Below are positions 33,978 through 36,016 of a stretch of 64,000 nt of DNA, one piece after another (within the stretch, counting starts at the first letter, position 1; every line of letters begins with the position of its first letter). Origin of the DNA: Micromonospora sp. AMSO31t (GTDB taxonomy: Bacteria > Actinomycetota > Actinomycetes > Mycobacteriales > Micromonosporaceae); NCBI RefSeq assembly GCF_008868175.1, contig NZ_WBKT01000009.1, positions 1 through 64,000 of the forward strand. The letters are read 5' to 3'. A model generated the notes under the pieces. The model had not been told where the DNA came from and ran no database searches. It worked only from the letters and a program-made list of their open reading frames with translations. The position numbers and the translations under genes were made by a program.

Positions 33978-34253
33978 GTGGAACGACGCCCCCGACGCCG
34001 GCTCCGGTCGGCCACCGTGCAGCTCGGCGCCCTGACCGCCCTGGCCCTCGCCCTGTCCGGCTGCAACAACGGATACGACGACGACGATGACGACTGCGCC
34101 CTCGGTCCGGCGGGCGGGGGCGGCGACACGGTCGCCCTGGCCCTGCGGGTCCCCGCGCCGGCCGCCGCCGCCCGGGACACCCCGGCGCCGGTCGCCGCGC
34201 CCCTGCCCGAGCGCGGCGGCTTCGGCACCCACCTCGCCTCCTGCGGGGGCTGA
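33978..34253 (+). CDS. Small Asp-rich lipoprotein paired with an ATP-grasp enzyme
   Basis: 91-aa precursor. The signal sequence LGALTALALALSGCNNGY carries a clear lipobox (LSGC, Cys about residue 29), followed by a run of six Asp (residues 33-38) and a Cys. An Ala/Pro/Val-rich segment follows, and the protein ends LPERGGFGTHLASCGG. No known domain. GTG 33978 is the start that puts the signal at the N-terminus. The stop is 1 nt before the GTG of the glutathionylspermidine-synthase-like gene. In enterobacteria a similar enzyme (YgiC) is paired with an acidic lipoprotein (YgiB), so a functional pair is likely. Confidence 0.72.
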   Translation: MERRPRRRLRSATVQLGALTALALALSGCNNGYDDDDDDCALGPAGGGGDTVALALRVPAPAAAARDTPAPVAAPLPERGGFGTHLASCGG

Positions 34254-34254
34254 C

Positions 34255-35421
34255 GTGCGGCGCGAGGCCAGCACGCCGCGCCCGGACTGGGACGCCACGG
34301 TCCGGGCCCAGGGCCTGGTGTACGTCGACACCGAGCTGCCTGACGGCGGCGTCATGTCGTACTGGGACGAGACCGCCGCGTACGCCTTCGAGCTGGACGA
34401 GGTGCTCCGGCTGGAGGAGGCCACCGAGGAGCTGCACCGGATGTCGGTGGCCGCGGCCGAGCACGTGGTGGCCCGCAACCGGTACGCCGAGTTCGGCATC
34501 CCGGAGTGGGCCGCCGAGGCGGTCGCCCGGTCGCTGCGGGAGGGGCCGCCGACCCTCTACGGCCGCTTCGACCTCTGGTACGACGGCAGCTGGCCGCCGA
34601 AGCTGCTGGAGTACAACGCCGACACCCCGACCGCGCTGGTCGAGGCGAGCATCGTGCAGTGGTACTGGCTGGAGCACACCCGGCCGGACGCCGACCAGTG
34701 GAACAGCCTGCACGAGCGGCTGGTCGGCGCCTGGGCGAAGATCGGCGCCGGCCTGCACGACCCGCGGGTGCACGTGGTCTGGTCCGCGGAGGAGGAGTCC
34801 GGCGAGGACCAGATCACCGCCGGCTACCTGGCCGAGACCGCCCGCCAGGCGGGGCTCGACGTCACGCTCCTGCCGATCCAGCGGGTCGGCTGGGACGGCC
34901 GGCGCTTCGTCGACGCCGCCGACCGCCCCGTCACCACCTGCTTCAAGCTCTACCCCTGGGAGTGGATGCTGGCCGAGCCGTACGGGCCGCCGGCGCTGGA
35001 GCCGGGCACCCCCACCACCTGGATCGAGCCCGCCTGGAAGCTGCTGCTCTCGAACAAGGCGCTGCTGGCGGTGCTCTGGGAGCTCTACCCCGGCCACGAC
35101 TACCTGCTCCCCGCCTACCTCGACTCGCCGCGCGGGATGACCGGGTACGTGGCCAAGCCGCTGCTCGGCCGGGAGGGCGGCTCGGTGCGCATCGTCACCG
35201 GTGGCACCGAGATCACCAATCCGGGGATCTACGGCGACGAGGGCTTCTGCTATCAGGAGTTCCGGGCGCTGCCCGAATTCGGGGGCAGCCGGATGGTGCT
35301 GGGCAGCTGGATCGTGGACGGCGAATCGGCCGGCGCGGGCCTCCGGGAGAGCGATAGCCTCATCACGGACGGTTACGCGCGGTTCCTGCCCCACTACATC
35401 GACGCGCCGCGTACCCCGTGA
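34255..35421 (+). CDS. Glutathionylspermidine synthase-family ATP-grasp ligase (YgiC/YjfC-like)
   Basis: 388-aa ATP-grasp amide ligase of the GSP_synth family without the amidase half, the same size as YgiC/YjfC. Family signatures are GRFDLWYDGSWPPKLLEYNADTPTALVEAS, TTWIEPAWKLLLSNKALLAVLWE, YVAKPLLGREGGSV, and GFCYQEFRALPEF followed by LGSWIVDGE. Actinobacteria with mycothiol usually lack glutathione, so the substrate is probably not glutathionylspermidine. Translation is directly coupled to the Asp-rich lipoprotein (1-nt gap). It may ligate an amine or peptide onto a cell-envelope component; this is inference. Confidence 0.88.
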   Translation: MRREASTPRPDWDATVRAQGLVYVDTELPDGGVMSYWDETAAYAFELDEVLRLEEATEELHRMSVAAAEHVVARNRYAEFGIPEWAAEAVARSLREGPPTLYGRFDLWYDGSWPPKLLEYNADTPTALVEASIVQWYWLEHTRPDADQWNSLHERLVGAWAKIGAGLHDPRVHVVWSAEEESGEDQITAGYLAETARQAGLDVTLLPIQRVGWDGRRFVDAADRPVTTCFKLYPWEWMLAEPYGPPALEPGTPTTWIEPAWKLLLSNKALLAVLWELYPGHDYLLPAYLDSPRGMTGYVAKPLLGREGGSVRIVTGGTEITNPGIYGDEGFCYQEFRALPEFGGSRMVLGSWIVDGESAGAGLRESDSLITDGYARFLPHYIDAPRTP

Positions 35422-35440: not shown

Positions 35441-36016
35441 GTGAACTTCGACGCGTACGCCCGGACCGGTGTTGATCTCGTCAACGCCCGTCTGGACGAC
35501 CTCGACGACCTGCGGGCCATCTTCCCGGACGACAACGCGTGGATGCGCGACGAGGTCGCCGACCGGGACCTGGCGATCTTCCGGCGGGCGCAGAAGCGCC
35601 TGCGCGACGTCTTCGAGTACGGCACCTCGGGCCGGGACGCCGAGGCGGTGACGGAGCTGAACACGCTGCTGGAGGCGTTCCCCGTCCAGCCGCGCATCTC
35701 CGGTCACGACTCCTCCGACTGGCACATGCACGTGACCAGCCGGGGCGCCTCGGTCAGCTCCGAATACCTGGCCGGCGCCGTCTGGGGCCTGTCGGTCTGG
35801 CTCTGCGAGTACGGCAGCGCCCGGTTCGGGGTCTGCGCCGACGAGCGCTGCGGCAACGTCTACCTGGACACCTCGTCGAACTGCTGCCGGCGGTTCTGCT
35901 CGGAGCGCTGCGCCACCCGCTCGCACGTGGCCGCGCACCGGGCCCGCAAGCGCGCCGCCGTGGGCGACCAGGTGACCGTCCCGACCCAGCCCGAACCGCT
36001 CACCCCGGTCAGCTGA
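35441..36016 (+). CDS. CGNR zinc-finger transcriptional regulator
   Basis: 191-aa protein with an N-terminal stress-response-like ABATE region (VDLVNARLDDLDDLRAIFPDDNAW, about 1-120) and a C-terminal zinc finger. The finger is FGVCADERCGNVYLDTSSNCCRRFCSERCATRSHVAAHRARK, with the CGN(x) signature and additional cysteines in the later part. The family binds DNA and is mostly uncharacterised. GTG 35441 lies 20 nt after the ATP-grasp gene stop on the same strand, so it might be co-transcribed with the lipoprotein/ligase pair. Confidence 0.87.
   Translation: MNFDAYARTGVDLVNARLDDLDDLRAIFPDDNAWMRDEVADRDLAIFRRAQKRLRDVFEYGTSGRDAEAVTELNTLLEAFPVQPRISGHDSSDWHMHVTSRGASVSSEYLAGAVWGLSVWLCEYGSARFGVCADERCGNVYLDTSSNCCRRFCSERCATRSHVAAHRARKRAAVGDQVTVPTQPEPLTPVS

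Follow-up and report, generated by a model that had tools for sequence, protein, structure and literature searches.

A short acidic lipoprotein and an ATP-grasp ligase encoded side by side in Micromonospora sp. AMSO31t probably form a substrate and its enzyme: on balance, we favor a reading in which the ligase links the C-terminal carboxylate of the lipoprotein, before export, to a primary amine for which a polyamine is the likeliest candidate. New here is a candidate acceptor, the C-terminus of the neighboring membrane protein, which is suggested by a sequence tail common to partners that are otherwise unlike one another. In the literature passages searched, a physiological acid substrate of the E. 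coli enzymes YgiC and YjfC is not named. The window that we analyzed is a stretch of 64,000 nucleotides of this genome. The lipoprotein gene (91 aa; positions 33978–34253, forward strand) starts with GTG at 33978 and has its stop codon at 34251–34253, and a lone C (a spacing of 1 nt) separates this stop codon from the GTG at 34255 that opens the ligase gene (388 aa; 34255–35421, forward strand). A gene for an ABATE/CGNR zinc-finger regulator follows on the same strand (35441–36016), 19 nt 3′ of the ligase gene. The ligase gene is the only PF03738 gene found in its own 6.36-Mb genome. Among the matches listed, the closest named relatives are Micromonospora species, with a ligase identity of 97%, and the pair is uncommon in the phylum: of 396 actinobacterial genomes sampled, 25 scored above the PF03738 cut-off.

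From its N-terminus, the lipoprotein comprises a signal-like Arg-rich segment (ERRPRRRLRS), a hydrophobic stretch and the lipobox LSGC with Cys29 (33978–34064, forward strand), six consecutive Asp residues (DDDDDD, residues 34–39; 34077–34094, forward strand), a Gly/Ala/Pro-rich middle and the tail RGGFGTHLASCGG, which together with the stop codon occupies 34212–34253 (forward strand) and which, given its conservation, we propose as docking motif and acceptor carboxylate. The tail peptide PERGGFGTHLASCGG is a candidate acid substrate of the ligase. LSGC after a hydrophobic stretch is the sequence pattern of a signal peptide with a lipobox, and lipidation is predicted; R7, R8, L9, R10 and S11, as well as L26, G28 and C29, were invariant in an alignment of 29 rows. 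The length of the Asp run varied from 4 to 7 in 45 aligned Micromonosporaceae copies. Searching Pfam with the 91-aa protein returned no family at E ≤ 1, DUF1190 (PF06693) included, and an AF2 model built from the 29-row alignment (mean pLDDT 55.6) contained one helix, residues 13–28, with no confident structure outside it. Among 39 Micromonospora-type copies, pN/pS was 0.577 in the middle of the lipoprotein, 0.154 over the last 12 codons and 0.072 over seven Asp columns (the run of six and one other). Since the pair is kept in relatives and pN/pS is low in the tail and Asp columns, the pairing is more than chance. A DNA pattern for the tail had a single match in the genome, the window lipoprotein gene; because the pattern covers only some codons, the same genome may have further tail carriers.

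PF03738 (GSP_synth) matched residues 12–382 of the ligase with an E value of 1.8e-139 (465.5 bits against a cut-off of 29.3), covering profile positions 1–371 of 371. The best PDB sequence matches were E. coli YgiC (E = 2e-80) and YjfC (E = 9.6e-76), followed by trypanothione synthetase and Gss, the glutathionylspermidine synthetase/amidase. The AF2 model of the ligase (mean pLDDT 89.8, pTM 0.90; alignment of 40 sequences, its own included) aligned with YjfC (7uk6) over 371 residues (Z 50.6, rmsd 1.7; 39% identity in the YgiC/YjfC structural alignments) and with Gss containing GSH and ADP at Z 43.3. The sequence and the full-length family match therefore confirm the original prediction of a 91-aa Asp-run lipoprotein 1 nt before a 388-aa YgiC-like ligase. 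In an alignment of 17 proteins, R104, D106, E119 and N121 (34564–34617, forward strand) corresponded to R316, D318, E330 and N332 of Gss, which we take to be phosphate and Mg2+ contacts; K268, K301 and R306 (35056–35172, forward strand) corresponded to Gss K498, K533 and R538, presumably ATP contacts; and R364 (35344–35346, forward strand) corresponded to Gss R598. Apart from the single Pfam domain, at 12–382 of 388 aa, there is no N-terminal amidase domain, and the score against the NCBIfam model for the bifunctional Gss synthetase/amidase (124 bits) falls below its cut-off of 882. Because the Gss residues are kept and PF03738 is the only domain, the protein resembles a full synthetase half that lacks the amidase half and, as judged from sequence and model, looks like an intact YgiC/YjfC-type enzyme with a predicted peptide–spermidine ligase activity. 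No signal sequence was evident in the ligase. In Catelliglobosispora koreensis (L044, 4001–5122), the ligase frame stops after 363 codons while similarity continues past the stop, which reflects either a truncation or a sequencing error; an acceptor with the usual tail lies upstream. This ligase was omitted from the alignment used for the structure model because of its in-frame stop.

In the Gss reaction, glutathione is joined through its glycine carboxylate to spermidine. The acid substrate of the window ligase might likewise be a small free molecule, a peptide or a thiol, with a polyamine as the amine; the lipoprotein would then act separately at the membrane, binding either the product or a metal. 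Gss and trypanothione synthetase, which share the synthetase fold and catalytic residues and provide the model for the C-terminal glycine activation proposed here, are indeed the nearest enzymes beyond the YgiC/YjfC type, but the window ligase comes without the amidase half, and in the alignment Gss S335, S337 and C338 are replaced by T, T and A. Moreover, according to the accessible passages of PMC12506659, which cites Sui 2012, YgiC is without Gss activity. None of the results obtained here lent support to glutathione or to mycothiol precursors as substrates. We consider a free small substrate unlikely, and the acid substrate that we propose, unlike that of Gss, is a protein tail.

To ask how general this tail is, we compared 122 loci: the window, 80 loci from genome_contigs (the best 80 of 592 confirmed matches; 44 from Micromonosporaceae and 36 from others), 25 further actinobacterial loci, 14 plasmid or phage records and two E. 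coli loci. The actinobacterial loci came from the 396 sampled genomes, 26 of which had a match, one being the genome of the window itself. In the plasmid and phage collections, 147 plasmid and 115 phage records matched, of which 8 and 6, respectively, were examined; since these records were picked for diversity, their rates are not population rates. A strict tail was defined as GG[FLYWI]G within the last 45 residues and an end of the form [GSA][GS]; the ORF had to be 60 codons or longer, and its end had to fall in a range from 1300 nt upstream to 60 nt downstream of the start of the ligase match. An upstream ORF had a strict tail at 110 of the 122 loci (the best 80 of 592 among them) and a looser form at 6. 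These counts measure conservation and do not amount to a blind test, since the tails were already known when the motif was written, and many of the loci come from close relatives. The remaining six comprised two contig edges (L006 and L070), a ligase match under the family cut-off (L111), a locus with the tail RGGFG and the end CCG (L137), a locus where a DUF1190 gene that carries the tail lies downstream of the ligase (L135) and an Azospirillum locus (L138) that is discussed below. Among the other ORFs of the same loci, on both strands, 5 of 7678 passed the strict definition, one of which was the L135 acceptor and the other four unrelated; among predicted neighbor genes, 4 of 672 passed, all being one gene, TetR-like by eye, in four relatives.

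The strict tails ended in Gly in 79 cases and in Ser in 31 of 110. The E. coli partners end in RGGFG...SMGG (YgiB) and RGGYG...HWGG (YjfM). YgiB, YjfM and three phage proteins matched DUF1190 (PF06693), and the protein of phage Motura scored 20.9 bits against a cut-off of 22; the window lipoprotein and the acceptors of four other loci (L123, L129, L131 and L136) had no Pfam match. At the level of sequence, then, the tail is common to acceptors otherwise without detected similarity, namely the Micromonospora Asp-run proteins, the DUF1190 proteins and unclassified actinobacterial proteins. A simple lipobox pattern was found in 68 of 116 acceptors, so that lipoprotein status is not universal. Among the 48 without it, 35 came from the non-Micromonosporaceae loci of the best 80, mostly Nonomuraea, and by eye these have an N-terminal membrane stretch instead. 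These observations bear on the free-substrate explanation as well. DUF1190 is called a metal-chelating lipoprotein in the accessible passages of Ravi et al. 2024 (PMC11237479), in line with a separate role for the partner, but such a role leaves unexplained why unlike partners share their last residues and not a folded body.

Alternatively, the tail might serve only for docking or export, and the ligase might, like graspetide or tubulin-tail ligases, modify Asp side chains. In Micromonospora-type copies, constraint is strongest in the Asp columns (pN/pS 0.07), and 97 of 116 acceptors have at least four D/E within some 8-residue stretch; against this, 7 of the 116 have only a weak acidic cluster (two or fewer of eight) despite their tail, and the nearest enzymes, as known for Gss, use a C-terminal glycine. 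(For the acidic-cluster counts, the final 130 residues of each stop-to-stop read were considered.) Modification of Asp side chains thus seems to us very unlikely. The Asp run was rejected as acceptor site because fewer acceptors have an acidic cluster than have the tail, and a graspetide system was set aside because the ligase belongs to PF03738. The most general shared feature is the RGGFG...G(G/S) tail, not the Asp run. The pairing of an ATP-grasp ligase with a short acidic protein whose end is conserved also recalls the amino-group carrier LysW and its ligase LysX; on this reading, the tail would hold an amine or amino acid transiently, for the duration of a pathway. LysX/ArgX with LysW did appear in the fold list, far down at rank 28 (Z 8.1), but LysW is cytosolic, whereas the window protein has a signal and a lipobox, and the six scanned window neighbors are not evident amine-pathway enzymes, one of them being a divergent proline dehydrogenase. 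We regard such a carrier role as highly improbable.

The Azospirillum brasilense plasmid locus (L138, 3016–4167) was the sole one examined where a ligase well above the cut-off had open upstream sequence but no acceptor nearby. Its ligase matches PF03738 (E = 1.3e-70), and no tail-bearing acceptor was present in the 7 kb examined. At the positions of Gss D318, E330, K498, K533 and R538 it has T, A, H, R and L, whereas the other 16 aligned proteins keep D318, E330, K498 and K533. Ligase competence and acceptor thus seem, from the sequence of this one case and a view of 7 kb, to have been lost together, and the protein is perhaps an inactive paralogue with another role.

Other neighbors of the pair depended on lineage. 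Among the best 80 of 592 matches, DUF350 was encoded 3′ of the ligase at 33 of 36 non-Micromonosporaceae loci (25 assigned by cluster and 8 more, two members having been checked by Pfam) and at 0 of 44 Micromonosporaceae loci, which eliminates it as an obligatory part. In the 25 ligase-bearing actinobacterial genomes, DUF350 was adjacent by coordinates in 9 and found nowhere in 8. Conversely, a CGNR-type gene followed the ligase at 39 of 44 Micromonosporaceae and 0 of 36 other loci of the same 80, as called by a simple ORF caller; being confined to Micromonosporaceae among the loci examined, it was likewise dismissed as a part of the system. Since both neighbors are lineage-limited, the smallest common unit is acceptor plus ligase. 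Conservation of this pair, which was a check on the original prediction, was found in relatives and also outside the actinobacteria, at plasmid, phage and E. coli loci. The phage carriers (L139, L140 and L142–L144) are large Ochrobactrum, Sinorhizobium and Achromobacter phages and Aeromonas Straboviridae phages, in which the acceptor precedes the ligase by as much as about 500 nt. In a further record, Acinetobacter phage MD-2021a (L141), the bacterial genes ybjG, alx and guanine deaminase adjoin the pair, and this record is probably a bacterial chromosome filed as phage.

As to the amine, an actinobacterial locus (L123, genome G327) carries, on one strand and within 6 kb, genes for the acceptor, the ligase, DUF350, a class-III aminotransferase (after a gap of ~0.6 kb from DUF350), two AdoMet decarboxylases and the spermidine synthase SpeE. 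The Achromobacter phage Motura (L142, 2530–4812) carries genes for a homospermidine synthase, a DUF1190-like lipoprotein with the tail RGGFG...SAGG, the ligase, a small protein and DUF350; the homospermidine synthase is so named in the record and has Pfam saccharopine dehydrogenase domains with no NCBIfam match. These two operons, with AdoMet decarboxylase and SpeE in one and homospermidine synthase in the other, support a polyamine as the amine. The accessible passages of PMC9992855 list the Motura enzyme as a homospermidine synthase homolog and read phage hss beside gss as a potential for glutathionylhomospermidine, which favors a free small substrate; we propose instead that the small gene between phage hss and gss encodes the acceptor. 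At two loci (L131 and L126), the end of the ligase gene is overlapped by a gene for an amino acid permease, an arrangement that would suit amine uptake. AdoMet_dc was present in 6 of the 25 ligase-bearing actinobacterial genomes and in 1 of 18 others, and PF01276 in 10 of the 25. In the genome of the window itself, neither AdoMet_dc nor PF01276 was found, and the only PF02784 gene is lysA; since AdoMet_dc and the searched ODC/ADC families were not found there, the case for a polyamine is weaker in this genome. A carboxynorspermidine route in this genome was rejected, a distant relative only having been found (171 bits against a cut-off of 800). Elsewhere in the same genome (L114, 2808–7197 of contig C89), an operon encodes DUF4178, DUF2617, DUF4247, DUF350, a membrane-fused spermidine-synthase-like protein and a further membrane or secreted protein. 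Its DUF4247 protein, considered as a second tail protein, ends in VRGGGPGSGK, outside the tail definition, and was discarded.

The chemistry of YgiB/YgiC had been taken as unsolved in the original prediction, a statement that is outdated, given that the RefSeq product name of both E. coli ygiC and yjfC is peptide--spermidine ligase. Pederick et al. 2023 are said to make this claim for YgiC/YjfC in their title and may well discuss the acceptor, and Iyer et al. 2009 reportedly treat amidoligases as their subject. The parallel with E. coli ygiB–ygiC that had also been drawn holds for gene order and ligase family and extends to the partner tail, RGGFG...GG; taken together, YgiB–YgiC and YjfM–YjfC share gene order, ligase family and fold, and an RGG[F/Y]G...GG partner tail with the window pair. 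The window partner differs from YgiB and YjfM in its length of 91 aa, its Asp run and the lack of a DUF1190 match; in addition, unlike at E. coli yjf, no DUF350, PspA or other yjf-type gene lies among the six scanned window neighbors, and, unlike for the E. coli pairs, AdoMet_dc was not found in the genome. In its accessible passages, Ravi et al. 2024 (PMC11237479) describes polyamine/ATP-grasp operons with DUF350 and with DUF1190 or DUF4247; the ligase family is the same, and DUF350 adjoins the pair in E. coli yjf, whereas the shared C-terminal tail and the short actinobacterial Asp-run lipoprotein are not described in those passages. The accessible passages of PMC12270671 report that the C-terminal Gly-Gly of SUMO and ubiquitin is conjugated to spermidine, with a mass shift of +127.15 Da for the spermidine amide; a protein C-terminus is thereby amidated as in our proposal, but through E1/E2 rather than an ATP-grasp enzyme, on a beta-grasp protein and in eukaryotes. 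A description of the tail was not found in the literature searched, a scope outside which subscription papers and preprints lay.

The Gly-Gly or Gly-Ser end is conserved to the last residue and a Gss-fold enzyme is encoded next to it, and the tail is for these reasons best read as the acid substrate. We infer that the lipoprotein is the acceptor and its C-terminus the site; the lipoprotein had been predicted to be the acceptor, and the tail conserved across loci supports this idea and narrows it to the C-terminus. In the proposed mechanism, the ligase would bind the disordered C-terminal tail of the lipoprotein precursor in the cytoplasm through the RGGFG motif and, with ATP, would phosphorylate the carboxylate of the last glycine to an acyl phosphate. 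A primary amine, most likely a polyamine, would attack this intermediate, leaving an amide bond at the tail end, and the modified lipoprotein would then be exported and lipidated. The acidic surface lipoprotein would thus bear a cationic C-terminal arm beside the membrane, which might, speculatively, contact anionic lipids or its own Asp run. Counted against this mechanism is the last residue, which is Ser and not Gly in the 31 strict tails given above, and the tail could be only a docking or export signal. It also counts against it that, with an export signal on the acceptor and no signal sequence on the ligase, modification would have to precede export.

More broadly, and tentatively, since we hold it somewhat less likely to be right than wrong, we suggest that the YgiC-type members of PF03738 are dedicated protein-tail ligases in at least three phyla and several phages, which would place an amine on the last residue of a membrane-anchored protein before export, with an RGGFG-like motif as guide and, in Micromonospora, with an amine that does not come from the AdoMet-decarboxylase route. 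If true, the phage hss–gss cluster would lead to a homospermidine-tagged lipoprotein, not to glutathionylhomospermidine, and C-terminal polyamine amidation would join the modifications of bacterial surface proteins and would be carried by phages as well. With a candidate acceptor named, the question of the YgiC/YjfC substrate can be put directly to mass spectrometry in E. coli K-12.
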